64,000 bases of DNA from Bacteroidia bacterium 43-41 (GTDB lineage: Bacteria > Bacteroidota > Bacteroidia > Bacteroidales > Dysgonomonadaceae), in the NCBI GenBank assembly GCA_001898165.1, contig MKTD01000018.1:1-64000 (forward strand). Reading direction: 5' to 3'. Shown here piece after piece: positions 6,044 to 64,000 of the stretch. The position numbers and the translations under genes were made by a program. Numbering within the stretch: position 1 is the stretch's first letter; every line of letters begins with the position of its first letter. The notes under the pieces were generated by a model. That model ran no database searches. It was not told the DNA's origin and saw only the letters and a list, made by a program, of their open reading frames with translations.

Positions 6044-6823
6044 ATGATACAGGTAAGGAATTTAGTAAAAGAATTCGAAGGCAGGATCGTTCTCGACGAC
6101 ATTACGACTTCCTTTAAAAAAGGGGCGGTAAACATGATCATTGGAAAGAGCGGTTCGGGCAAAACTGTTTTCCTGAAATGCCTTATCGGATTAATACATC
6201 CCACTTCGGGGGAGATCAGGTATAACGGGCGCAATATTATGGAGATGAGGGCCAGGGAAATGAAACGTTTGCGCCGCGATATGGGCATGTTGTTTCAGGG
6301 ATCGGCCTTGTTCGACTCAAAAACGGTACTCGAAAATGTAATGTTCCCGTTGGATATGTTCTCCCGGATGAATGTGCGCGAAAGAAAGAAACGTGCCGAA
6401 TTCTGTCTCGAAAGGGTAAATCTTTCGCATGCTGCCGATCTTTATCCATCCGAGATATCGGGCGGTATGATGAAACGGGCGGCTATTGCCCGTGCCATTG
6501 CATTGAATCCCAAATACCTGTTTTGCGATGAACCGAACTCGGGCCTCGACCCGAAGACGGCACAACTCATCGATGAGCTGATTTCGGATATCACGGACGA
6601 TTTCGGGATAACATCCATCGTTGTTTCGCACGACATGAACTCGGTAATGAACATCGGCGACAACATTATCTTTTTGAATGAAGGCGTATTGGAATGGCAA
6701 GGATCGAAAGACAAAATAATGGACGCCAAAAATGAAAAACTGAACGAATTTGTTTTTGCTTCAGAGCTTTTCAAAAAAATAAAAGAGGCCGACTCCATTA
6801 TTACAGAAAACAATTGTGTTTAA
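6044..6823 (+). CDS. mlaF: MlaF-family ABC transporter ATPase
   Basis: 259 residues with all ABC motifs: Walker A GKSGSGKT (about 34-41), Q-loop in GMLFQGSALFD, signature SEISGGMMKRAAIARA, where the MlaF-typical SGGM replaces SGGQ, Walker B LFCDEPNSGLDP and the H-loop VVSHD. It powers the permease encoded just upstream; ATP hydrolysis in the cytoplasm drives lipid transfer through MlaE. The SGGM signature and the immediate mlaE neighbour separate it from other ABC ATPases. After it comes a 125-bp gap containing a structured repeat, then sufC. Confidence 0.9.
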   Translation: MIQVRNLVKEFEGRIVLDDITTSFKKGAVNMIIGKSGSGKTVFLKCLIGLIHPTSGEIRYNGRNIMEMRAREMKRLRRDMGMLFQGSALFDSKTVLENVMFPLDMFSRMNVRERKKRAEFCLERVNLSHAADLYPSEISGGMMKRAAIARAIALNPKYLFCDEPNSGLDPKTAQLIDELISDITDDFGITSIVVSHDMNSVMNIGDNIIFLNEGVLEWQGSKDKIMDAKNEKLNEFVFASELFKKIKEADSIITENNCV

Positions 6824-50482: not shown

Positions 50483-50490
50483 TATATTTG
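50483..50490 (+). promoter_or_regulatory. -7 box for the fimbrial-locus regulator
   Basis: TATATTTG, 27 bp upstream of the ATG at 50518. It makes the TTG frame start at 50488 impossible. Confidence 0.6.
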
Positions 50491-50517
50491 CAATTTGCAA
50501 TAATTGATGCGGCAGAA

Positions 50518-51501
50518 ATGAAACAACAATACCAGTTCAATGAGAGTTTATCCCGGCATTTGGGAGAAATGTTCGACAGCCGGCGTAATTACATTAACTT
50601 TTTGATCGATAACCTGAATATAAATTATGAAGCCGCATGTCGCAGGACCAGGGGCGAGGTTCCGTTTACGCTTATGGAGGCAGCCATAATAGCCGAAAAA
50701 TTACAGATCTCCCTTGATAGCTTGACTAAAAATTCCTTGAAGAAATCGGCCCGTTTTGATATGGAGGTTATACCAAACGATAACGTAACCGACTATATGG
50801 CTTACTACGATGTCGTATTTATCGAACCCTATGAAAAATTCGCAACGGTTGCTGAGGTGGGTAACGTGCTTTCCACCAAGGCTGTACACGGTGATCTGCC
50901 GCCGATATTCCTTTTCCCTTACCGTAACCTTACACGTTTCAATATTTTCCAGTGGGTTTACCAGCTTTACCCTGATTCGATTAAGGATGGTTTTGCCGGA
51001 GTGCGTCTCACAGACGATATTATTGAGAGGCAGGATCATATTTATGAAATAATGACCGGCAGTAAACATCATACTACTGCTATTTACGGGAGGAACATTA
51101 TTTCGTCCTTTGTGGTACGGATCAATTATTTTAAAGATCTGGGGATGATTTCTCCAGACGACTTGATTCATATAAAAAAGGAGTTGCTTGCTGCTGTCGG
51201 CAATCTGGAAGAGATAACCCTCAATGGCGGCTATCCCCGTGGCAATCCGGTTGCAACTTACCTGGCCGACATCGATTTTGGGGCAAATTACATTTACATC
51301 GAAACCAAAAATTCGGAGATGACCATCATCGACCTCTACAATATGCATACAATGAGATCGTATGATGAATTTGTCATAAAAATGCATAAGAAATGGGTTG
51401 AATCGCTTAAAAAATACTCCACACTCCTGAATGAGGCCGGCGATGTGGTACGTTCCCGGTTTTTCAGGCAGCAGAGGGCGTATATCGAAGAAAATTTATA
51501 G
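50518..51501 (+). CDS. Putative HTH regulator of the fimbrial locus
   Basis: 327 residues from the ATG at 50518. Residues about 10-80 resemble a helix-turn-helix (FNESLSRHLGEMFDSRRNYINFLIDNLNINYEAACRRTRGEVPFT, quoted in part as NINYEAACRRTRGEVPF; then LMEAAIIAEKLQISLDSL). The remaining 250 residues show no known domain: KSARFDMEVIPNDNVTDYMAYYD, NIFQWVYQLYPDS, PRGNPVATYLADIDFGANYIYIETKNSEMTII. The ligand-sensing part is followed by a basic C-terminus. It precedes a fimbrial operon on the same strand with a terminator (51526-51554) between, which fits a dedicated regulator. I do not recognise the family further. Confidence 0.55.
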   Translation: MKQQYQFNESLSRHLGEMFDSRRNYINFLIDNLNINYEAACRRTRGEVPFTLMEAAIIAEKLQISLDSLTKNSLKKSARFDMEVIPNDNVTDYMAYYDVVFIEPYEKFATVAEVGNVLSTKAVHGDLPPIFLFPYRNLTRFNIFQWVYQLYPDSIKDGFAGVRLTDDIIERQDHIYEIMTGSKHHTTAIYGRNIISSFVVRINYFKDLGMISPDDLIHIKKELLAAVGNLEEITLNGGYPRGNPVATYLADIDFGANYIYIETKNSEMTIIDLYNMHTMRSYDEFVIKMHKKWVESLKKYSTLLNEAGDVVRSRFFRQQRAYIEENL

Positions 51502-51525
51502 CACAACCAATAAATGAACCCGGAT

Positions 51526-51556
51526 AAGAGCGGCAGGCGATACCTGTTGCTCTTTT
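51526..51556 (+). terminator. Terminator after the fimbrial regulator
   Basis: AAGAGC (51526-51531) + GG + CAGG pairs with CCTG + TT + GCTCTT (to 51554), the two central pairs being G-T wobbles, followed by TTTTTT. It separates the regulator gene from the fimbrial operon. Confidence 0.8.
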
Positions 51557-51591
51557 TTATTTTGTTCCGGCTCATCTATTCCGGTCGCAGG

Positions 51592-51700
51592 AAAGTCGTT
51601 TTCCGACTTTAATAGTGGAAATATCGTTTGTTTACAGCTCCATATTTTCTGTTTTTGCATTTTGAGTCGGGAAAAGGTGTTGTAATGACGAATAAAGTCG
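51592..51700. promoter_or_regulatory. Repeated AAAGTCG-type sites upstream of the fimbrial promoter
   Basis: AAAGTCG occurs at 51592-51598 and inverted at 51604-51610 (CGACTTT), forming a hairpin or dyad. It recurs at 51694-51700, with the related GAGTCGG at 51664-51670. All are within 165 bp of the promoter at 51732-51762 and outside any gene, so they are candidate operators. Confidence 0.5.
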
Positions 51701-51731
51701 GAACATCACATTGAGAGTCACTTAGAAAGTC

Positions 51732-51762
51732 TTGCGTCAGACCCATCAGTAAATTAATTTTG
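51732..51762 (+). promoter_or_regulatory. Promoter of the fimbrial operon
   Basis: TTG (51732-51734), 20 bp, TAATTTTG (51755-51762): the full Bacteroidota consensus. The leader to the ATG at 51819 is about 50 nt. Confidence 0.75.
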
Positions 51763-51818
51763 TCATATAAACCAGCAAATGGCAGATAGTTAATTACTAA
51801 TTTTCAATTTTTTAGATT

Positions 51819-52991
51819 ATGAAAACAATTAAATCAATGGTAGCTGTGGCAGTATTAGCAACGGCTTTGATATCCTGCAACAAGGATATCGGTGAGCAAA
51901 TTTCGCCTAAGGATGGAGAAACAACTCACGTTGTCCTGGAAGTACTGAAACCGGGAAATCCTACCAGGGCAGAAGCAGGGACGGTTACATCCCACACGGT
52001 AGAGTTCAGGAACGGTTATGTCTATTTTGTGGATGGAAACGATAAGATCACGGATGTATTCACCATTGTGGACAGTAATCCCAATGCGGCACAGAGGCAG
52101 GTGGTGATGAGTGGAAGCATAGATTTTGCGGAGGTATCCGGAAGCAGTAGAAATATTTACATATTCGGAAACGTCCCCACACTGAGCTTCGTAAAAGGCA
52201 ACAGTATCAGCAATGTAGTAGCGACAATAGTTGACCTTCAAACGCAGACCGAACTGGCGACATCCGACGTAAGCAACGTAACTTTGTACGGCAAGACCCA
52301 GACCGCTATAGACCATACCGGCAACCCTTCGACCGCCGCAGTTACAGTAGCGCCGATCGGTTCACGCATCGAGATACACAAGTTTACAGCCGTGGATATC
52401 GACGGATCTACCCCGACAGCCATAACCACATATAAAGTGGACGGCATCTTTATCAATAATTTTTACTATAAGAGTACAATTGCCGGTACACGCACCTCAA
52501 CCGTTACGCCAGCCAACGACAAATACTATTATGGCAAGGAAGCGGACGGTCAAAATCCGGCAATGTTCCTGGAAGGTGCGGGTATTTACAGTGCGGCCAA
52601 CGCCGGTTACATTTATGATGCCAACAACGCCGGTATAGGTAAGTTTACTTTGGCAGCTAAAGAGTATTCACCCAATACCGACGGGAAAGTATGGGCGTAC
52701 AACCTCTTTGCTCCTGTGGGCGGTGAATTCCCCCACATAGTAATCCGTGTGTCGGGTTTCAATTCCGAAGTGGGCATAGGCAATGAACTCCGCTGGATGA
52801 CTGTCACTAAGTTCCTGAATGTAAGTGACGACAGCGAAGTTCAGGCTTTCCTTCCCGGCCGCATATACCAGATCAAGAACTTTACCTTTAACGAGGACAA
52901 TATTGATGTTGCTCCTGAGATGAAGAGTGTTACTGTCCGGGTTAGTGTAACCTTGGCAACATGGATGGAAAATGAGGTTAAACCGTGGTGA
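51819..52991 (+). CDS. Mfa1/FimA-type major fimbrillin
   Basis: 390 residues. Lipobox LATALISCNKD (Cys about 20), then a fimbrillin N-terminal domain (THVVLEVLKPGNPTRAEAGT, VDGNDKITDVFTIVDSNPN) and a C-terminal transthyretin-like domain ending VRVSVTLATWMENEVKPW, with the W-containing C-terminus typical of Mfa1-family subunits. Such subunits are exported as lipoproteins, cut by an arginine/lysine protease, and polymerise by strand exchange; the segment around PTRAEAGT has an Arg that could be the processing site. It is the first gene of the operon and would be the bulk of the fimbria. Alignment to Mfa1 is recalled, not computed. Confidence 0.8.
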   Translation: MKTIKSMVAVAVLATALISCNKDIGEQISPKDGETTHVVLEVLKPGNPTRAEAGTVTSHTVEFRNGYVYFVDGNDKITDVFTIVDSNPNAAQRQVVMSGSIDFAEVSGSSRNIYIFGNVPTLSFVKGNSISNVVATIVDLQTQTELATSDVSNVTLYGKTQTAIDHTGNPSTAAVTVAPIGSRIEIHKFTAVDIDGSTPTAITTYKVDGIFINNFYYKSTIAGTRTSTVTPANDKYYYGKEADGQNPAMFLEGAGIYSAANAGYIYDANNAGIGKFTLAAKEYSPNTDGKVWAYNLFAPVGGEFPHIVIRVSGFNSEVGIGNELRWMTVTKFLNVSDDSEVQAFLPGRIYQIKNFTFNEDNIDVAPEMKSVTVRVSVTLATWMENEVKPW

Positions 52992-53012
52992 ACCAATAAA
53001 AAGTACAGTCAA

Positions 53013-53039
53013 GCCGTCCCGTCCAAATGGGCGGGCGGC
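53013..53039 (+). promoter_or_regulatory. GC-rich intercistronic hairpin after the major fimbrillin
   Basis: GCCGTCCCGTCC (53013-53024) pairs with GGGCGGGCGGC (53029-53039) around AAAT, with one bulged C and U-G pairs. No T-run follows. It lies between the major subunit and the anchor, so it could give partial termination or protect the upstream mRNA 3' end and set a high major:minor subunit ratio. Confidence 0.6.
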
Positions 53040-53089
53040 CTACGTTAAAAGTGTATAAAGCATTGACCGGCAGAATAAAATATAAAATA

Positions 53090-54025
53090 ATGAAAAGGTA
53101 TTTTGTCATACTGTTATTGCCGCTGCTATTGCTTGTCAGTTGTATATGGGAGCATCCTTTCTGCGAAACAGATAATAACCTGGTATTGCGTCTGCGCCTG
53201 TTGGATACAAACGGTAATGACCAGTTTACAAATAAGATACTTTCAGTGGATATTATCATTTTCGACACCCGGAACAACTTTGTCAGATCATTCCGATTCG
53301 ACAAAACCGCGTTTGATTCTAAGAACCGCGTCGCAATGTCCCTGGTTCCCGGAATTTACCGGATCATTTGCTGGGCAAATGTGACAGACCATTCAAAGAT
53401 TATGGGAGCGAAACAAGGAGGAAACTTTAAGGAGTTGTATCTGGAAGAGAGATCCTCCGATACAGGAAGCCCCGTTTATTATGCTCCGGCCGGTAACATC
53501 AGCAGATCCGGCTCCGGCGATGATTTCGACTACACGGGTTTCACCGTAATTCTGCCTGCCGATAAAATAACTGAAAAAACTATGGATCTGCGCAGGGTTC
53601 ACCGAACGATAAATATTTATATACTTGGATTGGAAAACCTTGCCGGGTTCGATGGCCTGAATCCGAAAGTACAAGCGAAGAATATGCCGTTCCAATACGA
53701 TTTCACCTCCTCAAGCAAGCCCGGGCGGCGCGACTATATAATGACAACGCAGCAGAATACCAGGTCGGCGTTGCTATATACCGCTGGTTTTCATTCGCCT
53801 GCTGCCGCTTTTAGCGATGACATGACCATTCATCTGCTGAATTCTTCGGGCAATACCCAACTGATTGATGGCCTGAACCTGAAAGCATGGGTTGAAGAGA
53901 ACCCGCCTCAGGATACCTGTGAATTCGGCATACTGTTCACCATAACAAAGACCTCTACAGGAGTATGCGTTACGGTAACCAAACCCGATTGGGAAGATAT
54001 TGATGTGAAACCGGGGGATATTTAA
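53090..54025 (+). CDS. FimB/Mfa2-type fimbrial anchor lipoprotein
   Basis: 311 residues from the ATG at 53090. The signal peptide and lipobox (LLPLLLLVSCIW, Cys about 17) fit an outer-membrane lipoprotein. The middle has MRRVHRTINIYILGLENLAGFDG-like fimbrillin features (here DLRRVHRTINIYILG) and PGIYRIICWANV, the family hallmark seen in Mfa2/FimB. It would terminate and anchor the fimbria and set its length. It is preceded by the hairpin at 53013-53039 and followed 12 bp later by the tip candidate. Confidence 0.8.
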   Translation: MKRYFVILLLPLLLLVSCIWEHPFCETDNNLVLRLRLLDTNGNDQFTNKILSVDIIIFDTRNNFVRSFRFDKTAFDSKNRVAMSLVPGIYRIICWANVTDHSKIMGAKQGGNFKELYLEERSSDTGSPVYYAPAGNISRSGSGDDFDYTGFTVILPADKITEKTMDLRRVHRTINIYILGLENLAGFDGLNPKVQAKNMPFQYDFTSSSKPGRRDYIMTTQQNTRSALLYTAGFHSPAAAFSDDMTIHLLNSSGNTQLIDGLNLKAWVEENPPQDTCEFGILFTITKTSTGVCVTVTKPDWEDIDVKPGDI

Positions 54026-54037
54026 AAATATAAAGTC

Positions 54038-56182
54038 ATGAACGTCAAATATGCATTATTGCTTTTTCTACTTGCTGTAATGGCCGCGTGCAGCATGGGA
54101 AATGACATGCCTGACCCGATAGAGGAAGGCCTGGAAGTAATGGTAACGGTTACCACAAACACATCGGAGCCGCTCACAAGGGCCGTGATAACCGATGACG
54201 CTGCAATACATATTTTTACAGCGTTGATATTCGATCAGAACAATAAATTGCTTTATGCTACGGAAGGTGTAAAACGCTCCGGTGTATTCACTTTTAAGCT
54301 ACTCTCTTCAGGGACAGCACTGAACATATATTTTGTGGCTAATGTACAAAGCTCACTCGTTACGGGATTTACGCCAGGTACCGCGTTATCCACGGTAAAG
54401 CAGCAACTCTCCGTGTTGTCCTCCGGCGTAACCAATGCGAACGGCTACCCCATGGCGGGTATGGCCAGGCTAAATAACCTGCCTGCCTCGTTCAGCAACA
54501 ACCTTAACGTCATAATGCTGCGATCGACAGCCTCGGCCAGGATCGTGGTAAATGCTTCTATTCCCGTGAGCAAGTTTAAATTGGTATCGGTAGCCGTATA
54601 TCGGGCCAACGACCGTGTACAGGTTATACCTGCGGCCGATCCTGCCAATTGGAACAGTCCTAAGGTCACTGAGGCTTCGCCGGCCGGAGCTAAAACTAAT
54701 GGAGTATTCTCTGTTGATAACACCTCAACTAATTCCATTGACGGCATTATGGTTCCGGAAGCGTCTCCCGTGACCGAAGCTAATTTACAAGTGAGAACCC
54801 CTACTGTCCTTGTGGTGGGGGGAGTCTATAACAATTCGGGTAAAACCACTTACTATCGGGTCGATTTTAACTCGGAACTTCCGGGGCATCCCTTCGGGCA
54901 GGTATTACGGAATTACAAATATACCCTTAACATCAACAATGTGGACTCCGAAGGATGGGATACGCCCGGCAATGCGGCTGATAACGCTGCAAGCGGGACT
55001 TCGGTTACCATACAAAATTGGGATGGAAATGCAAGTAATGTAACGATAGACGGACCGTACTATTTCGCTATCCCCGGCCAAGATGTAATCTTGCCTTTTT
55101 ATGCGGGAGCAACCGTTACAATTCCTGTCATTACAAATATTCCTAACTTTACCGCTTCATGGGATAGCCCGCCCACGACATCCATATCTCCCGGCGGCAG
55201 CTTCACGAACACCTACTATAAGGTTGACCTGGCTGCCGACAAAAAGAGTATCACCATAACAACCCGTACCAACAACTACAGTGCGGCTGTTTTTTCCTCC
55301 ACACTGTATGTAAAGTTGGTGGGACAAACAGTGCCGATCTCTATCAAACAGAGCAATTACAGTAGCGTCAGTGGCGGGGGCTGTGATATACTGAGCCTTG
55401 GGAACGGTGGAATAGGATATCTGGGAACTTACACACACTGGAACAGCACCGCTGCCGAAGTCAAAGCTGCCGGGCTCAAAGCCCTGCTTGTGCATCCCAA
55501 TAACTTTGGTGCTACCGGCCGGGTTCCTACGAGCCGTTTGAATATATTCTGCGAAGTGAATCCGCAGGACGATTACATTTATCTTCAACGGTATATAGGA
55601 ACGTTCAACATCATATACCTGAATGAGGCGGTCTTTTCGATAGGCCCCAATAGTGCGCAGGTACTCATTGACTGGGCAAAGAGCAGCCCCAGGCACTACC
55701 TTATATATATGTTCGACCGAGCGAAATACAGTCCCCTCACACCATATAATCTGGAGATTTTAAACAAGCTTGGGTTGACGGATATTACTTCATATTATGC
55801 CACAGCCGGAGCATATACCCAGTACTCGGCGAATTACAATGATGCTGCGATGAGCCAGATTTACAAAGGGCCTTTTGGAAACGTGGCATCGGGCTTTTCA
55901 TTCCGTAATATTGACGCCATTCATTCCGAAATGAATCTCGCCGCAGCACAAAGCAAAGGGATCAAGCCTATTTTATTGGGCAATGAGGGGGGGATGTTGC
56001 TGGGGATAGATTTTACCAATCGCATCGTCCATTGTGGAGATGTAGATATATTTAATGCTTTGGCCGGAGGAATAGCCCAATATATAAACACGGACGATGC
56101 CACGAGCGGCACTGCCAACGATGCCACCAAACTGATTGCTAACTTATGGGCGTATATGATAAGGACGGTCTCGTCGAATTGA
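54038..56182 (+). CDS. Large fimbrial tip candidate with a BACON-like and an alpha/beta-like C-terminal domain
   Basis: 714 residues. Lipobox LLAVMAACSMG (Cys about 18). Residues about 20-330 look like a minor fimbrillin (ALIFDQNNKLLYATEG, NIYFVANVQSSLVTG, MAGMARLNNLPASF, LRNYKYTLNINNVDSEGWD). A beta-rich BACON-like segment follows (about 350-445, ending VPISIKQSN). Residues about 450-714 are different: alternating hydrophobic strands and helices (CDILSLGNGGIGYLG, LKALLVHPNNFG, FNIIYLNEAVFSIG, RHYLIYMFDRAKYS, PILLGNEGGMLLGIDF, RIVHCGDVDIFNAL). That pattern resembles a Rossmann-like or class I amidotransferase-like fold (inference). The third gene of the fimbrial operon would supply the tip. 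Confidence 0.65.
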   Translation: MNVKYALLLFLLAVMAACSMGNDMPDPIEEGLEVMVTVTTNTSEPLTRAVITDDAAIHIFTALIFDQNNKLLYATEGVKRSGVFTFKLLSSGTALNIYFVANVQSSLVTGFTPGTALSTVKQQLSVLSSGVTNANGYPMAGMARLNNLPASFSNNLNVIMLRSTASARIVVNASIPVSKFKLVSVAVYRANDRVQVIPAADPANWNSPKVTEASPAGAKTNGVFSVDNTSTNSIDGIMVPEASPVTEANLQVRTPTVLVVGGVYNNSGKTTYYRVDFNSELPGHPFGQVLRNYKYTLNINNVDSEGWDTPGNAADNAASGTSVTIQNWDGNASNVTIDGPYYFAIPGQDVILPFYAGATVTIPVITNIPNFTASWDSPPTTSISPGGSFTNTYYKVDLAADKKSITITTRTNNYSAAVFSSTLYVKLVGQTVPISIKQSNYSSVSGGGCDILSLGNGGIGYLGTYTHWNSTAAEVKAAGLKALLVHPNNFGATGRVPTSRLNIFCEVNPQDDYIYLQRYIGTFNIIYLNEAVFSIGPNSAQVLIDWAKSSPRHYLIYMFDRAKYSPLTPYNLEILNKLGLTDITSYYATAGAYTQYSANYNDAAMSQIYKGPFGNVASGFSFRNIDAIHSEMNLAAAQSKGIKPILLGNEGGMLLGIDFTNRIVHCGDVDIFNALAGGIAQYINTDDATSGTANDATKLIANLWAYMIRTVSSN

Positions 56183-56246
56183 AAATACGACAATTTCAAG
56201 CGGGACGATTCGGTTTCACCGGATCATGGGTATATAAATAAAAAAA

Positions 56247-56285
56247 ATGGGGTGCATTGCCGTAATTTCCGGCAAGCAGCCCCAT
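56247..56285. terminator. Bidirectional terminator between the fimbrial operon and PUL 2
   Basis: The stem ATGGGG-T-GC-TTGCCG (56247-56262) pairs with CGGCAA-GC-A-CCCCAT (56270-56285), with A56256 and G56279 bulged. T-runs follow on + (56287-56292) and, through the A-run 56241-56247, on minus. It ends both the fimbrial operon and the PUL 2 transcript. Confidence 0.8.
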
Positions 56286-56290
56286 GTTTT

Positions 56291-57628
56291 TTACTTCTCT
56301 ACTACGGTCAATACCGCTGCATTCGCTCCTGCCGATACATCGACCGTGAATAGATACGTTTTACCTGTTGTCAGCGTTTTGCCACTGACAATACCTAAGT
56401 TTCCGTTGTCGCGTCCATTGGTTCCGTCGCCAACGAAAATGATTTCGCTTGCGGTAGTAAGTGTTGCGCTGCCAAACTCGCCTCCCCAGCCTTTCTGGTG
56501 GAAGAACTTGAAGTTTATGGCATCCGAACTTATGGTTTCGCCCCCAACTACGGTCAATTGATATTTTTTATTGCCTACCGGAGCCATACACAATGCCTTG
56601 TCGGTATTCCAACCCACTTCATTGCCTGCCACGGACGGTTTTCCTACATTTGTGCCGATGATCCACACCGCACCTGTTCCGTCTGCCTGAAGTGTTGCTA
56701 AATTGCTGCCCGCCATAACTTCCACTTTCAGGTAATTCAGGCTGAGGTTTGCCGTGATACGGTACTTTCCACTAATCGGTACGAAAGTCATCTTACCTCC
56801 CTCTCGGGCAAAAAAGTCAGGATCTATCCACCAATCCGTCAGACCTTTCAAAGTGATTTCCTCACCCTGGGTCAGGTCAATATCCAACTGGTAATTGTCT
56901 TTATCCAGCATCCCCATTTTTTGCCCGTTGAACACTACTTCGAAGAAAGGTGAAGCTTCGAATGTCTTTGTATTGAAAGTTACGCTGTAAGTGCCGCCCA
57001 CTGGGCTTGCAAATGGAATATCGGCTGAAGTGCCTTCGCCAATGGCTCCTTCACTTTCTTCCCAGCCAAAAACAATCTCACGCCCTTTGTCATCTATCAC
57101 CGGTGTTTTTATATAGGCCGGTAATTCCTTGGACGGAAAAGCAGCCTTGGCCGCATACTCATTCGGTTGCCCGGTCGGAAGCATGGGATAAGATGCTTTG
57201 GCGGTTACCAGGATAAGGTAAGGGTACGGTGCCCGGCTCACCGGCACATCGAATGTTTGTATTGCTTTTTTCATGGTGGTGTTCACCAAAATAAACTTCA
57301 ATGTAGCGGTTCCGTCGGGAATATTCTTCCCGTACGGGATGGCTATATTCCCGGAATATTGCCCGTTCTCTTTGGTTCGGAGGGTGGTTTTGGAAACTTC
57401 CTCTTCTCCGAAATACAATATGGCCGTTAACGTGGATAAGGGTACATTGTCGCTGACCGTAACGTTGAACGGCAAAAGATCTCCAAAATGTACATCGGCA
57501 AACTGGTTTTCTATCTGCATGACGGGATTCCCTTCCTGTCGGAGCTCTTCCATGTCATTGGAGCATGACGTGAGTGCAACGGAAATCGTAAATGCAAATA
57601 CCCGATACTTTATTCTATTCATATTCAT
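56291..57628 (-). CDS. SusE-position surface glycan-binding lipoprotein
   Basis: 445 residues from the ATG at 57628; the ATG at 57622 (MNRIKYRVF) is equally likely. Lipobox TISVALTSCSN. Beta-rich domains follow: an Ig-like one at about 25-125 (FNVTVSDNVPLSTLTAILYFG), then regions with WWIDPDFFAREGGKMTFVP and, near the end, AVWIIGTNVGKPSVAGNEVGW and INFKFFHQKGWGGEF, which resemble the SusE/SusF C-terminal starch-binding modules. No catalytic motif. It lies last in PUL 2, after GH30, and probably displays beta-glucan-binding aromatics on the cell surface. Confidence 0.75.
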   Translation of the reverse strand: MNMNRIKYRVFAFTISVALTSCSNDMEELRQEGNPVMQIENQFADVHFGDLLPFNVTVSDNVPLSTLTAILYFGEEEVSKTTLRTKENGQYSGNIAIPYGKNIPDGTATLKFILVNTTMKKAIQTFDVPVSRAPYPYLILVTAKASYPMLPTGQPNEYAAKAAFPSKELPAYIKTPVIDDKGREIVFGWEESEGAIGEGTSADIPFASPVGGTYSVTFNTKTFEASPFFEVVFNGQKMGMLDKDNYQLDIDLTQGEEITLKGLTDWWIDPDFFAREGGKMTFVPISGKYRITANLSLNYLKVEVMAGSNLATLQADGTGAVWIIGTNVGKPSVAGNEVGWNTDKALCMAPVGNKKYQLTVVGGETISSDAINFKFFHQKGWGGEFGSATLTTASEIIFVGDGTNGRDNGNLGIVSGKTLTTGKTYLFTVDVSAGANAAVLTVVEK

Positions 57629-57639
57629 ATAGTTACTGT

Positions 57640-59160
57640 TTATTGTTTTTTCCATCGATAAGATATGACTGATTTGGCAGGTACCTCGTAAGCGAAGTGA
57701 TGAGACCCGTCGTCAAGGGTAATTGCCTTGTTTGTCGCGGTGCTGTTGAGTAGTACCACGGCGTAGGTACCGTCAGGGTTCTCAAATGCCGAATAGTAAA
57801 AACCGGAATCTGAAAAGCCCGATGTCCCTATACGTGCCGCCCCCGGTTTTACCACCGACGAAAGATGCCCGATGATGTAATAATGTGAATTGCGGGTGAT
57901 GGTCTTGTAATTGGAACGATCGATATCCACGGCTCCGTAACAGGTTTGGCAACCACCGTCGCGATTGGGGCCACGATCGCTGTCGAGCATCAGGTTCCAC
58001 ACGATGACGCCTTTGCACCAATTGTTTACCGTACCCAGTGCCACCTCCTTCATATCATCGATCAGGCGGGTTTCGAGGTTCCGGCCGTCGTTCCATGTGC
58101 CGATGGATGTTTCGGTAAATACCAGTTCTTTGTCCGGGCGTGACTGACGGATAAAATTCAGTTCCTCTTTATTTCCTCCATAATTATGATAGGCCGCGCC
58201 GGCAACAAAATCTGCTGCTGCCGCGTCTGCATAAATTTTCAGCGGATACTGCCCCTGATCGGCGTTCTCGGGCTTATTGCTGTCGTAGTTATAATTATGA
58301 TCATAAACATAAATCCTGGTGTTTAATCCCGCTGCTTTGAATTTAGGTCCTAAAGCATCTCTTACAAAGTCGCGTTGTTCCTGCCACGTCATGTATAACG
58401 AAGCGGAGTTACCCCTGTTGAGCGGTTCATTCTGCGGCGTTACAGAATAGATCTTTATTCCCTGTTCCCCGAAAGCATGGATCCATCTCACGAAGTAATC
58501 GGCATAGTCGGAATAATATGCCGGATTGAGCTGACCGCTTGTCCACGAGTTGAACGGTTGCAGGTCAGTGAGGTTATTTACCTTCATCCATCGGGGAGGC
58601 GTCCACGGCGAACCCATTATCTTCACATTGGGATTGATGGCCAGGATCTCTTTCAGAATAGGGATTACGTAGCGCGTCTCTTCCTCCGTAAGGGCAAAAT
58701 TCTCTATGCCGGGTGTATCACAACAGGTGTATTCGCTCAGCGAAAAATCGGAACATCCGATAGATATCCTGATATAACTCTGTCCCATACCTTCGGTTTC
58801 GGAAAACGTCTCTTTCAGGAATTTGGTGCGGTTCTCTGTTGTCATCTGCATCAGGTTGTAACAGGTGGAACCCGTTACGGCTGCCCCAAAACCGTCCATG
58901 GTCTGGTAACGTGTGCCGGGTTCCAGTTTGATGGTGGTTGGCGACATGTTGTCTTTTGGACTGAAATTGGCAGCCTGCTTTTTGAAATCCATAGAGCGGG
59001 TATTGGTTGTAATATAGATGGTTACATCTCCGGCTGCCGGTACTTCCGGTTCGGGGGTGCCACCCTCATTATTGTCTTTTCCGGCATCACTGCAGAATGA
59101 TAAACAGCATAATGCCAGAATCAATAATGTTGTCATTTTCAAATTGAATATTAACTTCAT
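57640..59160 (-). CDS. GH30 glucanase lipoprotein, probably endo-beta-1,6-glucanase
   Basis: 506 residues from the ATG at 59160 (MKLIFNLKM). Lipobox LALCCLSFCSD. GH30 (beta/alpha)8 barrel plus beta-sandwich: TMDGFGAAVTGSTCYN, then GSPWTPPRWMKVNNLTD, acid/base E245 in TPQNEPLNRG and nucleophile E350 in VFTETSIGTW. The subfamily used in Bacteroidota for beta-1,6-glucan (pustulan) has this architecture; glucosylceramidase or xylanase activities are alternatives. Being on the surface it would cut polymer for the SusCD pair upstream. No GH3 partner is visible in this PUL. Confidence 0.9.
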   Translation of the reverse strand: MKLIFNLKMTTLLILALCCLSFCSDAGKDNNEGGTPEPEVPAAGDVTIYITTNTRSMDFKKQAANFSPKDNMSPTTIKLEPGTRYQTMDGFGAAVTGSTCYNLMQMTTENRTKFLKETFSETEGMGQSYIRISIGCSDFSLSEYTCCDTPGIENFALTEEETRYVIPILKEILAINPNVKIMGSPWTPPRWMKVNNLTDLQPFNSWTSGQLNPAYYSDYADYFVRWIHAFGEQGIKIYSVTPQNEPLNRGNSASLYMTWQEQRDFVRDALGPKFKAAGLNTRIYVYDHNYNYDSNKPENADQGQYPLKIYADAAAADFVAGAAYHNYGGNKEELNFIRQSRPDKELVFTETSIGTWNDGRNLETRLIDDMKEVALGTVNNWCKGVIVWNLMLDSDRGPNRDGGCQTCYGAVDIDRSNYKTITRNSHYYIIGHLSSVVKPGAARIGTSGFSDSGFYYSAFENPDGTYAVVLLNSTATNKAITLDDGSHHFAYEVPAKSVISYRWKKQ

Positions 59161-59255
59161 ACGATTATATTTTATAAAGTGAAATTCCATTCTTCGTATT
59201 ATTCCTAAAATTAATTACATTAGTTTTATTGGTTCATTGACTAATTTGCACATCG

Positions 59256-60653
59256 TTATAGCGTTACTTTTTCAATATGCACTGTTTTGTTGTTCAGGTT
59301 GATTGTAAACCGGTAATTGGCGGATTCCACTACCGGATCGTTTTCACCGTTGGGGATTGTCCAGTCGTTATCGCCGGTAATGATTTGTTCGCCGGTAAAG
59401 GTAAATTCACCCGCTTTCTTTTCGTTGCCCCAACCGGTATTTTCGAACGGTTTGAATCCGGCATAATGATCCTGATCGCCCGGCGTATAAAACGTTCCCT
59501 GGTACACTCCTTCGTCGATCTGCCGCAGCAGCACGTATTGCATTACATGTCCGAATCCCCAGCTGGTGTGTGTCCTCTGATGTCCCGGATACACCGCCTC
59601 TATTTCGGCCGAAGTTGCATTTGTGGGATATCCCAATCCGAAACCGCAGGCCAGCAAATAGTCGGGATAAGATGGATTGTCAACCCCTACGAAGATGTTC
59701 TTGCGGACAGGGTTATAGTAAAGGGTATATTCTCCGGTTTTCCCCAGGAAGGTAACCTTGTCGGCAGACGCACGCTTGAAAAAGTCCGGATTATAGATGA
59801 TTTTTGTTCCGGCCAGCTCGCCGAACGCCGAATAGGTCTTGCCGTTCTGTAACGTGCGTTTAAGCACACGGAAAGATTCGCCGTCAATGTCCTGATCCGT
59901 GAAAATGCTCAACGCCAGGTCATCCTCGCCGAGATGACTTCCGGTTGTTGCTACGTTGAAACCATAACCATCGAAGGTGAATGTTTTTATGTAATCGGCC
60001 GACGGGGCATATACAAAGGCCGATTCGCCTCTCTCGTCGATCATCCCGATCCTGCCGTTCACATTACCATATACGTCTCCCGTATAATCGATGGTGTTGT
60101 CGGCATTGAGCTTTTCTGCAATCTTAAACCGAAATGAATAGTCGAAAGTCAGTCCGTCAGCCTGAAATTTATTTTTATCTGCTGTTTGGGGCTCCAGAAT
60201 TGCTATGCCTCCATCGTCCGTAACCAGATAAAGCGGATTGTAAACAGGGCGGTTTCCGGTCAGGCCGGTAATCTGATAGGAGGCTAAGCCCTTCAATACG
60301 TTCCGGGCAACCAGGTTGACCTGCACATCCGAATTATTGGCCTGACTGCTCAGTAGCGGAACGAAGATAGCCCGGGAAACCTCGTGCGTGTCGCCGCCTA
60401 TGGGTATCTCACCCGACGTGAGCGTCCTGCCTCCGGAAACCATTTCGTAGGTCAGCATGGTCAGCGTGGTGGCGGGATCGGTGATTTTTGCCGTCAGCGT
60501 CACCGAATCACCGAACGTAAAGGAGGAGGGACTCACGCTTGCCGCCTCAAATACCGGGGTTGATTCTTTGCGGGGACCATACTCGTCTTCGCACGAGGCG
60601 AGCAACAGGGCAATGATCCCGGCCATGAAAAACAGTTTATATAAGGAATTCAT
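59256..60653 (-). CDS. SusF-position surface glycan-binding lipoprotein
   Basis: 465 residues. Lipobox GIIALLLASCEDE (Cys about 21), an Ig-like N-terminal domain (SPSSFTFGDSVTLTAKITDP) and C-terminal beta modules with many aromatics (YPDYLLACGFGLGYP, HTSWGFGHVMQYVLLRQIDEG, YAGFKPFENTGWGNEK). The closing EFTFTGEQIITGDNDWTIPNGENDP resembles SusE/F-type binding repeats. It is third in PUL 2 after SusD, the place of a surface glycan-binding protein. Not catalytic as far as visible. Confidence 0.75.
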   Translation of the reverse strand: MNSLYKLFFMAGIIALLLASCEDEYGPRKESTPVFEAASVSPSSFTFGDSVTLTAKITDPATTLTMLTYEMVSGGRTLTSGEIPIGGDTHEVSRAIFVPLLSSQANNSDVQVNLVARNVLKGLASYQITGLTGNRPVYNPLYLVTDDGGIAILEPQTADKNKFQADGLTFDYSFRFKIAEKLNADNTIDYTGDVYGNVNGRIGMIDERGESAFVYAPSADYIKTFTFDGYGFNVATTGSHLGEDDLALSIFTDQDIDGESFRVLKRTLQNGKTYSAFGELAGTKIIYNPDFFKRASADKVTFLGKTGEYTLYYNPVRKNIFVGVDNPSYPDYLLACGFGLGYPTNATSAEIEAVYPGHQRTHTSWGFGHVMQYVLLRQIDEGVYQGTFYTPGDQDHYAGFKPFENTGWGNEKKAGEFTFTGEQIITGDNDWTIPNGENDPVVESANYRFTINLNNKTVHIEKVTL

Positions 60654-60683
60654 AGTTGTCTTTTTTTATGTTTATATAAAAAA

Positions 60684-62222
60684 TCAATATCCCGGATTCT
60701 GGACAAGATTCGGGTTTTGGTCGATCACATCCTGCGGAATAGGCAAAATATATGACCGGCTTGTATAAGGATACACCTGTGCCGGGCGCCCTTCATCTTT
60801 ATTAAATACCGCGTTCATCACCTCTTCCACTTTGTCGAGGCGCACGAGGTCGAACCATCGCTGGCCTTCGAGGGCGAGTTCAAGGCGGCGTTCTTTAAGA
60901 TAGGCCTTCAAGATGGATTCTTTGCTGGCCGACGCCGATGCCGGCAGATTGTTCAGTCCGGCCCGCCGGCGTGTCTGATTGATGATCTGAGCCGCTCCGC
61001 TGTAATCGCCTTTCCCGATCAACGCCTCCGCTTTGAGCAATAAAATATCGGCATATCGCATTTTGATGATGCTGTTGTAGGCGCTGCGGGTTTTGTACAT
61101 GAAAGCATAATTATTGGCCGGATAATAGATCGTCCAATCGCACTGATAAAATACAATGGTCTGTCCGTAGCGTTTGTCTCCTTGTTCACTGTTAAAGGCC
61201 TTGATCAGGTCGCGGGATGGCGTGATCCATTTTGCCCAGGTGAAATAGAACGTCCAGTCATCCAGCGGGCGGCCGAACATCCAGGTGACCCAATTGGTAT
61301 TTCCCGGGAAAAACTGCGCTTCGAAAATGGACTCTTTGGTATTGCGTGCTTTTGCTTCTATCGCCTTATTTGTCTGGGAGGGAGGAGCGTTCGGGTCCGT
61401 CAGCACCACATCGAACAGATCGCTAAAATTGTCTACCAGGCCAAAGCCGTCCGTAGCCAATGCGTCGGCGTATTGGATTACCTTGTCGTAATCACGTAAC
61501 GGTTTTTCGGCATAGACCTTTGCCAACAATGCGCGGGCAACGGATTTCGAGAACTGTGTCTTATCCGCCGGATCATTATCGGGAGCATATTGCAACCCGT
61601 CCAACAGGTCTTGCTCAATCTGTTTATAGATCGTGAGAGCATCTGTTTGCGGCGGGAAATAGGCTGGATATACTTCGGCAATGGTTTCGGAGGTAATGTC
61701 ACCTGCCATTGTGGTTATTAACGGGACATTTCCCCATATTCTTACCATATCGAAATAAATCATAGCCCTCAGGATCTTGGCTTCCGCCTTATACTGTAAC
61801 CTCTCTGCTTCGGTCAATGCCGGATCGGGCACTTTGTCGATATTAACGATCAATCGGTTTGCCTGGGCTATGTTCGCCATGTGGCCGTTCCAGTCGCGCC
61901 TCAGGTTGGTATTCGACCCTTCGATGGAATTCACCTCGAACGGCGTTGTTTCAGCATTCGGCGCACCGGCGTAAGCATTATCGGAATGCGACTCGGCAAG
62001 CAACAGCATATCCAGATACCAGTGTTCCTGCCCGTTTTTGAACAGGTTCAGCAGCGTTTGTCTGTGCGACAGAAGCGCGGCTTTGTCTTTAAATACGATC
62101 TTGACACTATCGTTGTTTACTCCTTCGGTTACATCCGAATAAAGTCCCACCGGGTCATAATTCAGTGAACAGGAGGCCAGTAAACAGGCGATAAGGATCG
62201 ATAGAATATATTTTGTCTTCAT
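60684..62222 (-). CDS. susD: SusD/RagB family nutrient-binding lipoprotein
   Basis: 512 residues. Lipobox LIACLLASCSLN (Cys about 18). Family landmarks: YKAEAKILRAMIYFDMVRIWGNVPL near 150, LLAKVYAEKPL, and LKERRLELALEGQRWFDLVRLDK with YILPIPQDVIDQNPNLVQNPGY at the end. It is the lid and binding subunit of the SusC transporter just upstream (11 bp gap). Confidence 0.95.
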   Translation of the reverse strand: MKTKYILSILIACLLASCSLNYDPVGLYSDVTEGVNNDSVKIVFKDKAALLSHRQTLLNLFKNGQEHWYLDMLLLAESHSDNAYAGAPNAETTPFEVNSIEGSNTNLRRDWNGHMANIAQANRLIVNIDKVPDPALTEAERLQYKAEAKILRAMIYFDMVRIWGNVPLITTMAGDITSETIAEVYPAYFPPQTDALTIYKQIEQDLLDGLQYAPDNDPADKTQFSKSVARALLAKVYAEKPLRDYDKVIQYADALATDGFGLVDNFSDLFDVVLTDPNAPPSQTNKAIEAKARNTKESIFEAQFFPGNTNWVTWMFGRPLDDWTFYFTWAKWITPSRDLIKAFNSEQGDKRYGQTIVFYQCDWTIYYPANNYAFMYKTRSAYNSIIKMRYADILLLKAEALIGKGDYSGAAQIINQTRRRAGLNNLPASASASKESILKAYLKERRLELALEGQRWFDLVRLDKVEEVMNAVFNKDEGRPAQVYPYTSRSYILPIPQDVIDQNPNLVQNPGY

Positions 62223-62233
62223 TTTGTTGCAAT

Positions 62234-64000
62234 TTAAAATTCAAGATTCACTCCAAAAACAAATGTCCTGCTGTGAGGGTATGTACCCCAGTCGATACCC
62301 TGTACGGCGCCGCTGTTCCCCCATTGATTCACTTCGGGATCCATGCCGCTGTATTTTGTGAACGTCAGCAGGTTGCTGGCCGTTACATAAGGTTGCAGGC
62401 GTGAAATGCCGGCCTTGTCGAGAATGCTCCCTTTGAAGCTGTATGACAAGGAGATATCTTTTATCCGGAGATAACTTCCGTCTTCCACAAAATAGCTCGA
62501 CGGTTGCAGGTTAAAGCCGGCTTTGGGTACATCGGTGATCTGTCCCGGCGTACGCCAGCGTTTTAGCACTTCTACCGACTGGTTTTTTAAATCGTGCATT
62601 CCTTGCGTATCCCCTTTGGATGCGTTGAAGATATCGTTTCCTACAGATCCCTGGATAAATATATTCAGTCTGAATCCCTTATAAGAGAAAGAGTTGGTCA
62701 ATCCGTACGTGAATAACGGATTGGGATTTCCAATATAGGTTTGATCGGAAGGGCTGATCCTCCCGTCTTCATTCAAGTCGCGGTACATTAATTCTCCGGT
62801 TTCGGGATCTACCCCGTCGCTGATATATCCCCAGAATCCTCCCAGGGGACGTCCCGGCTCATTCCGTACAACGCGCGTCTGGTGAAAAGCGTCGGTAGTC
62901 TCGGCATCTTTATAAATTTTCTGCAGCTCGAGGCTTTTCAGTTTGTTCCTGTTGAACGAAATGTTGAAATCGGTATCCCAACCGAATGCACCGGTAATAT
63001 TGCGCGAGTTCACGGCAAACTCAAAACCGCGGTTCGTCATTACCCCTTCATTCCTTACAATTGAGGATGCCTCTGCCGATCCCGTCGGTACGGTAACATA
63101 CATCAACATATCGGTTGTGTACTTGTAATAGTAATCCATCGCAACGGTTAACCGGTTCTTCAACAGCGTTGCATCCAATCCGATATTGGTTTGTGAGGTG
63201 GTCTCCCAGGTAAGGTCCGCCGTACGGAGGTTTTCCGGAGTCACCAACGGGATGGCGTCTGTCTGTCCGGCTTCAAACCAAGGTTGCCGGGTAATGTTAT
63301 ATCGTTGCAAATAGGCGTAATCACCGATTCCCGACTGGTTTCCCGTTTGTCCCCAGCCGCCCCTGATCTTCAGGTCGTCGAGCCAGGTGAGGTCTTTCAT
63401 AAAGTCTTCGGAAGATAAGCGCCACGCGCCGGAGAAAGACGGAAATGTTCCCCAGCGATGATCGGGGTGAAGCTTCGACGATCCGTCTGCACGCACATTC
63501 GCGGTAAAGAGGTACTTGCTGTCGTAATTATAGGAAAGACGTCCGAACACCGACATGATGGCCCATTCCGAAGCATTCGACCCCGTATTGTTCCAGGCAA
63601 TTTTGTTAGCTGCATTCAGCGTGTGGATAGATCCATCCTTGAAATGGGATCCATTAATATAACTTTGCGACCATTTGGAGTTCGTCCACGATGTTCCGCC
63701 CATTCCTTCAAAATTGTGTTTTTCCGCGAATGTTTTTTTATACGTCAGTACATTATCAAATACCAGCAATGTATTCATCGAGCGGTTATCCCACGCGTAT
63801 CCCCAATCGTCCCTGTCAGTTCCGTGCGAAGGAGGAGTAAAACCTGTTTCCTTACCGTTGCGGCGATCCAATGTAAATGAAGTTTTCAGAATCAGTTCCG
63901 GCATGAAGGTAATGGTTGTGTTTCCGGAGGCAATCAACCTGTTCTCGTTGTTTTTATTGTTTTTACCGTTTTCGATCTCCTCGATGGGGTTGGTAATGTT
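62234..64000 (-). CDS. susC: SusC/RagA TonB-dependent transporter, 5' end beyond the window
   Basis: At least 588 residues, C-terminal part only. The frame is open across the edge at 64000 (NITNPIEEIENGKN), so the TTG at 63937 is not the true start. The barrel part has RADGSSKLHPDHRWGTFPSFSGAWR, quoted as SSKLHPDHRWGTFPSF, WDDLKIRGGWGQTGNQSGIGD (WLDDLKIRGGWGQTGNQ), LRIKDISLSYSF and the final TFVFGVNLEF. The N-terminal plug, any STN domain and the promoter lie outside. It imports products of the surface GH30 enzyme with the SusD behind it. Confidence 0.95.
   Translation of the reverse strand, partial: NITNPIEEIENGKNNKNNENRLIASGNTTITFMPELILKTSFTLDRRNGKETGFTPPSHGTDRDDWGYAWDNRSMNTLLVFDNVLTYKKTFAEKHNFEGMGGTSWTNSKWSQSYINGSHFKDGSIHTLNAANKIAWNNTGSNASEWAIMSVFGRLSYNYDSKYLFTANVRADGSSKLHPDHRWGTFPSFSGAWRLSSEDFMKDLTWLDDLKIRGGWGQTGNQSGIGDYAYLQRYNITRQPWFEAGQTDAIPLVTPENLRTADLTWETTSQTNIGLDATLLKNRLTVAMDYYYKYTTDMLMYVTVPTGSAEASSIVRNEGVMTNRGFEFAVNSRNITGAFGWDTDFNISFNRNKLKSLELQKIYKDAETTDAFHQTRVVRNEPGRPLGGFWGYISDGVDPETGELMYRDLNEDGRISPSDQTYIGNPNPLFTYGLTNSFSYKGFRLNIFIQGSVGNDIFNASKGDTQGMHDLKNQSVEVLKRWRTPGQITDVPKAGFNLQPSSYFVEDGSYLRIKDISLSYSFKGSILDKAGISRLQPYVTASNLLTFTKYSGMDPEVNQWGNSGAVQGIDWGTYPHSRTFVFGVNLEF

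Follow-up and report, generated by a model that had tools for sequence, protein, structure and literature searches.

Introduction

FimD is an accessory tip adhesin of the FimA fimbriae of Porphyromonas gingivalis; when FimCDE is deleted, this species binds less strongly to fibronectin and collagen I, and the processing of type V pilins at an arginine site is described in the same source (PMC7616799; this and the other papers are cited here for individual passages). Mfa5, which is located at the tip, carries a von Willebrand factor (vWF) domain of Rossmann type and is a substrate of type IX secretion (PMC7835359), so that type V fimbriae with an alpha/beta head have a precedent. Here we analyse the open reading frame 54038-56182, on the forward strand of a 64,000-nucleotide stretch of a Dysgonomonadaceae genome (Bacteroidia bacterium 43-41, contig MKTD01000018.1, positions 1 to 64,000; hereafter the window). 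Its product is a lipoprotein in which a type V pilin part is followed by an Ig/BACON-like domain and, at the C-terminus, by a distinct alpha/beta domain, named here the head, and it is a probable fimbrial tip protein. Like FimD it has an N-terminal pilin half and is a lipoprotein of a fimbrial operon; like Mfa5 it bears an alpha/beta head. An earlier note on this sequence had proposed a fimbrial tip candidate whose C-terminal part could be a Rossmann- or amidotransferase-like module, acting either as an adhesin or as an enzyme.

On the surface of Bacteroides, the C-terminal domain of a levan-binding surface protein binds its glycan, with W297 and W359 being important, and its reported DALI matches are 1T0B and 7CBE (PMC7618045). 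DUF4960 is a levan-binding domain, which binds when isolated and for which a 'Rossmanoid Flavodoxin-like fold' was predicted (PMC10076258). GIFT domains have been proposed as sugar binders (PMC7226087), and IFT52 is part of the IFT-B assembly (PMC10191852). In the open-licence PMC literature searched, we found no description of a GATase1/GIFT-like head on a type V fimbria.

Domain organisation of the protein

The 714-residue reading frame is open throughout and has a single match in its own genome. It begins with a lipoprotein signal peptide (54038..54088, +; residues 1-17, MNVKYALLLFLLAVMAAC) followed by Cys18, the would-be lipidated residue. A cysteine is aligned in this column in all nine tip proteins compared, seven of which match the strict lipobox pattern; the window protein is not one of the seven. 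Arg48, in the short sequence pattern PLTR-A (54179..54181, +), is a candidate type V pilin protease site, and proteolytic processing after this residue, as in other type V pilins, is probable from the sequence. The pattern T/S/L-R-A/S/L lies downstream of the cysteine in 9/9 tips, this being a short pattern counted without a chance control.

The type V pilin part (54122..55024, +; about residues 29-329) was assigned from a family match and from FimA/Mfa3 structure matches. Residues 38-165 match Pfam PF06321 (FimA) above the cut-off (E = 6.8e-9), and residues 12-312 of the full-length AlphaFold2 model align with FimA1 (6jzk) at Z 9.2, with 245 aligned residues and an rmsd of 7.3. The same part gave Z 8.9 with FimA2 (6jzj) and Z 8.4 with Mfa3 (5nf4), the values over FimA1, FimA2, FimA of W83 and Mfa3 ranging from 8.4 to 9.2 for Z and from 7.3 to 9.2 for the rmsd. 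The Ig/BACON-like domain follows (55049..55363, +; about residues 338-442). Here model residues 321-425 match residues 42-129 of 3zmr (Z 9.8, rmsd 2.2, 83 aligned), the N-terminal domain of a Bacteroides ovatus GH5 xyloglucanase, which we take to be a BACON domain. Many further Ig-like domains also match this region, and the assignment of the spacer agrees with the PF13004 (BACON) matches found in relatives, all of them below the cut-off.

The head occupies residues 445-714 (55370..56179, +), as delimited by the model, structure comparison and homologues. The earlier note had judged this part, from CDILSLGNGG onwards, to be unlike a fimbrillin, and we agree: CDILSLGNGG begins at residue 449, residues 445-714 alone give no Pfam match up to an E value of 5, and the full-length model, mostly beta up to about residue 440, alternates strands and helices in the remainder. 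With the whole tip protein only sub-cut-off matches were obtained in this region (Pfam ToxA, 0.13; NCBIfam, 0.09). The full-length model, with a pTM of 0.35, served only to define domain borders and fold class; its residues 454-697 match structures of glutamine amidotransferases (GATases) and homoserine succinyltransferases. The all-beta fimbrillin or lectin fold that the earlier note had named as the contrary outcome did not occur.

Predicted fold of the head

Modelled alone from 4 usable sequences, residues 445-714 again showed alternating strands and helices (AlphaFold2; pTM 0.67, mean pLDDT 58.4, 94 of the 270 residues reaching 70). The model was compared with known structures using VIA-align 2, in which rows within Z 1 count as tied. 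The top row was the N-terminal (GIFT) domain of IFT52 (5fms: Z 11.8, 185 aligned residues, rmsd 3.5, 10% identity), followed by the ThuA-like 4pxy (Z 11.3), IFT52 again (5fmr, 10.8) and the ThuA-like 1t0b (10.4). A chain of the levan utilisome, 8aa2_G, aligned through its residues 178-438 (Z 10.1, 201 aligned, rmsd 4.2). Lower rows contain GATases, such as 8hx9 (9.9), 2lxn (9.2), 1i7q (8.9) and 2a9v (8.7), as obtained on a low-confidence model, besides gamma-glutamyl hydrolases, succinyltransferases and domains of larger glycosidases. For models without a clear match VIA-align 2 quotes best Z values of 7-8, which the top rows exceed. vWA structures were absent from the best 50 rows listed, an absence that we do not use as evidence. 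With Foldseek the best rows were GATase domains of aminodeoxychorismate synthase, a beta-1,2-glucosyltransferase and homoserine O-succinyltransferases (E 3.0e-3 to 1.5e-2). Structure prediction and fold search have in this way borne out the Rossmann/amidotransferase-like module of the earlier note, and a class-I glutamine-amidotransferase-like (GATase1/GIFT/ThuA-like) fold is supported by this low-confidence model.

From its length and the title of the entry, chain G of 8aa2 would be BT1761 (SGBP-lev), whose C-terminal domain we assume to be DUF4960. Both the window protein and BT1761 are Bacteroidota surface lipoproteins that end in a GATase1/ThuA-like fold preceded by Ig-like domains, and the two reported DALI matches of the levan-binding domain, 1T0B and 7CBE, are both among the structural matches of the head (Z 10.4 and 9.5). 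In contrast, BT1761 belongs to a SusCD utilisome and not to a fimbria, and the head has no significant profile similarity to DUF4960 (PF16324), which matches neither the window protein nor its genome. The likeness to the IFT52/GldG GIFT domain lies in the two IFT52 rows and, by eye, in a G-D after a strand in one GldG-like sequence; IFT52, however, is a eukaryotic transport scaffold, and GldG gave no significant profile match. Finally, DUF4350 (PF14258) matches one member, that of genome G455, across the core of the domain (E = 4.6e-4), at 20.9 bits against a gathering score of 30.4; the other 8 of the 9 members, including the window protein, gave no match.

Distribution of the head domain

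When the single sequence was used as query, related domains were recovered in full length, with E values between 3.5e-30 and 6.4e-7. With the window's own genome counted throughout, the domain was found in 2 of 101 genomes of the family, in 6 of 393 genomes of the order with the single sequence (9 of 393 with a nine-row alignment) and in 4 of 395 genomes of the phylum; a fifteen-row search gave 6 of 355 genomes of the class, two matches of these not being accepted. Weak profile matches in G1099 (no Pfam match at E 0.01) and in G908 (within a subtilase-like protein, by eye) were not counted as relatives. The head domain is rare and patchy in the genomes sampled, and domain searches of the family, order and class genomes found a single copy in the genome of the window.

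The copies fall into three groups. The core group comprises 10 copies on tip-like proteins from nine Bacteroidales loci: the window, G030 (two, in tandem), G159, G455, G212, G303 (two, G303a and G303b), G311 and L030, where G and L numbers denote genomes and loci. A second group consists of a divergent copy in G264, on a tip-like protein of 1056 residues. Copies of the third group end other surface proteins in G336 and in the flavobacterium-like genomes G512, G750 and G801; core and third group were linked by profile comparison at 98.6% (E = 7e-16).

Several members show peculiarities of their own. G030 is Dysgonomonas alginatilytica (now Indolivaga alginatilytica), of the same family Dysgonomonadaceae as the window's genome; here a single pilin gene and a single anchor gene are followed by two tandem tip genes with the head (L012, 6059-11203), both of which encode an additional Ig/BACON-like stretch. 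L030, from a Rikenellaceae metagenome-assembled genome, has an in-frame TAG in its tip gene (6256-6258) where the nine remaining core copies all have a tryptophan, which reflects either a mutation or an assembly error. In G386, a fragment resembling the N-terminus of a tip lies next to what is left of the head, a short piece of its last helix (L027, about 1353-1781 and 1501-1578), probably a degraded copy. The large surface proteins that end in a related domain lie in L031, L032, L033 and L026 (G801, G512, G750 and G336), and by eye the product of the next gene in L031 ends like a gliding/T9SS-type protein.

Conserved residues and absence of a catalytic triad

Residue conservation was counted over the 10 core copies, or over 15 aligned copies where a count is group-wide. 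The earlier note had singled out a GNEGGMLLGIDF...VHCGDVDIFNAL block as conserved-looking. This block is present, and its conservation goes beyond chance among the related domains (E values as above), with the R and the G-D kept in 10/10 copies; its Cys is not kept.

To judge from the alignment, the head lacks a Cys-His-Glu triad. Strand 4 reads V-L-I-V and the residue right after it varies (M/G/A/A/Q/G/S/S/G/Q); by the topology of GATases this position would be the site of their nucleophile cysteine, and the end of the last core strand presumably corresponds to the place of their His-x-Glu. The motif G-x-C/S-x-G occurs in none of the 10 core copies, H-x-E occurs in three, at differing places and never at the end of the last strand, and no alignment column of these copies contains more than 3 Cys or more than 2 His. 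An amidotransferase-type enzyme was therefore rejected. The conserved Cys/His pocket for which the earlier note had suggested testing across homologues is likewise absent, and a conserved Asp pair is found near those places instead. Asp560 (D116 of the domain; 55715..55717, +), two residues after strand 4, is an Asp in 10/10 core copies and is also kept in the G264 copy. Gly667-Asp668 (G223-D224; 56036..56041, +), right after the last core strand, are Gly-Asp in 15/15 aligned copies. The other invariants of the core are an L-G after strand 1, a P-F, an R before the last strand and an N in the last helix. Several of the invariants would map to the ends of strands, which is where a GATase-like fold has its pocket, and D560 and D668 may line a kept pocket of the head.

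Fimbrial context and probable exchange of heads

The tip gene is the third and last of a compact three-gene block (51819-52991, 53027-54025 and 54038-56182), and the gene downstream of it is convergent. The second gene encodes an Mfa2/FimB-family anchor (53027..54025, +; 332 residues as listed; PF08842, E = 1e-16, above the cut-off) similar to the anchor of L030 (blastp, 1.5e-17); the ATG at 53090 (MKRYFVILL..SC) is more likely to be its start than the listed one. The first gene (51819..52991, +) encodes a lipoprotein of 390 residues with an NPTR-A site, by its position the probable major pilin, which resembles the first-gene products of both the L030 and the G455 operon (blastp E 1.3e-23 and 3.5e-23). 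The first genes of these three operons are mutually similar and have no Pfam pilin match, so that the pilin was assigned by position in all three.

Across the core group, an Mfa2-family anchor was detected above the Pfam cut-off in 8 of the 9 loci (window, G030, G159, G212, G303b, G455, G311 and L030). Pilin families adjoin the tips of G030, G159, G212, G303a, G303b, G311 and G264, the G264 locus containing both an anchor and a FimA-type pilin, and the two neighbours scanned in G303a are pilin-like, with Fimbrillin_C matches of which one is above and one below the cut-off. The order pilin-anchor-tip is found in the window, G030, G455, G212, G311 and L030; in G159 the tip gene and those of pilin and anchor are divergent.

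The NCBIfam model of the FimD tip adhesin (NF052322, whole-protein cut-off 170 bits) matched only the N-terminal halves of six relatives, at 31-74 bits and E 9e-8 to 9e-21 (G455 7.7e-19, G303a 8.8e-21, G212 3.4e-9, L030 1.2e-17, G264 5e-20 and G311 9.1e-8). For G264 the whole tip protein gave no FimD match by hmmscan, its N-terminal 370 residues gave 5e-20 and the genome search 8.9e-20. When the nine tips were compared by profile with six FimD-type proteins, the similarity (97.8%, E = 1.2e-12) covered tip columns 30-392 and did not extend beyond. Of three FimD-type proteins scanned, and unlike the window protein, two have a weak, sub-cut-off Lcl_C match at their end (PF07603, E = 0.0014 in L084 and 0.015 in L087), the third (L083) having none, and the profile of the alpha/beta domain finds nothing in FimD-type proteins. 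A plain FimD orthologue was ruled out, the match of the relatives stopping before the alpha/beta domain and the window protein having none. In G303b the same head stands behind an Mfa_like_1 part (PF13149, E = 3.4e-8). At the sequence level, the C-terminal heads read as having been exchanged on a common pilin base. The tip assignment of the earlier note is supported by the neighbouring genes and by the FimD-like N-terminal halves of the relatives, not of the window protein itself, and we regard a tip location as probable.

Discussion

We propose, with a probability of about 0.45, that the head acts as an adhesin without catalytic function and binds a glycan at the tip of a type V fimbria. The three genes would form a type V (FimA/Mfa1-type) fimbria operon with pilin, Mfa2-type anchor and tip. 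The tip protein would be exported as a lipoprotein and then probably cut after Arg48; its N-terminal pilin part would receive a strand of the next pilin subunit, and its C-terminus would carry the Ig/BACON-like spacer and the GATase1/GIFT/ThuA-like head in place of a polymerising end. The head, exchangeable and replacing the C-terminal part of FimD-type tips, would terminate the fibre, meet the target and bind a glycan there, following the precedent of this fold in the Bacteroides levan-binding surface protein. A glycan is favoured as ligand because the same fold binds levan, because DUF4960 binds levan and because GIFT domains have been proposed as sugar binders. Of the two functions offered by the earlier note, the adhesin is thus preferred, by analogy of fold, and the enzyme, in its amidotransferase form, falls with the lack of conserved Cys and His.

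A number of observations weigh against this proposal. The model of the head is weak, 119 of its 270 residues, among them domain residues 1-71, having a pLDDT below 50 with 4 sequences as input. Foldseek returned no match at E 0.001 or better with this model (best 3.0e-3), and its TM scores by query were 0.26-0.44 in the top 13 rows. The conserved tryptophans of the head lie in predicted helices, with no demonstrated equivalent of the levan-binding ones, and D560 is not kept in the copies of G336, G512, G750 and G801. On the fimbrial side, neither Pfam nor NCBIfam assigns the product of 51819-52991 to a pilin family, the two neighbours scanned in G303a include no anchor, and NF052322 matches neither the whole protein nor the N-terminal part in the window, G030 (both), G159 and G303b, the window protein giving no match at E up to 1. 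Comparisons by hhalign of the head with our own alignments of DUF4350 (13 of 18 matches, those over the cut-off), DUF4960 (7 of 11) and GldG (17 of 20 loci, from which L067 was dropped) were not significant either. In the control, DUF4350, DUF4960 and GldG did not find one another, so that the test is blind at this distance and its result is no evidence against kinship of fold; membership of the head in any of the three is not supported by profiles.

The main rival keeps the tip and the fold and lets the head bind a protein, of another bacterium's surface, a host or a matrix, a reading that we consider rather unlikely. It draws on the top structural row, the GIFT domain of IFT52, being part of a protein scaffold (IFT-B, PMC10191852; rows within Z 1 being tied), and on the weaker fibronectin and collagen I binding that follows FimCDE deletion (PMC7616799). 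The conserved Asp pair near the classical pocket would, however, be better suited to holding a metal or a small ligand than to forming a flat interface, and the functional precedents found on Bacteroidota surfaces are glycan binders (PMC10076258, PMC7618045). That the pair serves a divergent enzyme, for example one hydrolysing surface glycans or peptides in a metal-dependent way, appears improbable. The hydrolases and acyltransferases among the fold matches and the strict conservation of D560 (10/10) and G-D668 (15/15) speak for such an activity; no conserved Cys, His or Ser nucleophile is found at the expected places, and a GD-x-D-F run is also present in an ABC-transporter/GldG-like protein of L049. 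Proteins of this ABC-transporter/GldG-like kind are not known to be enzymes.

A vWA-type head would follow the precedent of Mfa5, with its Rossmann-type vWF domain and tip location (PMC7835359). Mfa5 differs from the window protein by its vWF fold and its type IX secretion, and the MIDAS motif DxSxS occurs in only 1 of the 10 core copies (that of L015) and not in the window, hence at no conserved place; on this motif a vWA head was ruled out, and we regard it as highly improbable. The protein might finally be no tip at all but a pilin that is accessory or built into the shaft and bears a large side domain. The divergent gene of G159 and the missing match of the window protein to the FimD tip model fit this alternative, which we nevertheless hold to be unlikely: a bulky C-terminus would replace the polymerising end, in six relatives the N-terminal half gives a sub-cut-off match to the FimD tip adhesin, and 8 of the 9 core loci have one gene with the head, G030 having two in tandem.

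Returning to the glycan-binding adhesin, a wider and more tentative proposal is that the triad-less GATase1/GIFT fold with its conserved Asp pair could be a plug-in ligand-binding cassette of Bacteroidota surfaces, swapping with FimD-type and other heads on type V fimbriae, while in flavobacterium-like genomes further large surface proteins have a related domain at their end. To our knowledge, the binding targets of most type V fimbria ends are not established, and the head offers a definable domain of about 270 residues with conserved residues at a likely pocket and a glycan-binding precedent in the same fold. Should a glycan be the ligand of the head, Bacteroidota would use one fold for both adhesion and polysaccharide capture; if it is a cassette, fimbriae and polysaccharide-capture proteins would share one glycan-binding fold.

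Neighbouring genes

Upstream of the operon, three imperfect inverted-repeat pairs were seen, which we do not read as an inverton, and the exact Bacteroidetes-type promoter pattern had no match there. Terminator-like sites in 51400-56400 showed no excess (3, against a shuffle mean of 5.0). The first gene product (51819-52991) forms with L014 11545-12726 and L030 2422-3702 a group of related lipoproteins outside the Pfam pilin families, possibly an undescribed pilin family. Downstream of the tip gene, 56291-63937 on the reverse strand contains genes that by eye resemble a polysaccharide utilisation locus (SusC, SusD, SusE/F-like and a GH30-like glycosidase). The window's own genome contains a second fimbrial locus (L115, 2813-7187) with a pilin-like gene, an Mfa2 anchor (E = 3.1e-45) and a third gene whose product has 584 residues. 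Upstream of the operon, 50488-51501 (+) encodes a protein of 337 residues with a weak BetR helix-turn-helix match (E = 0.053), possibly a regulator of the fimbrial operon.

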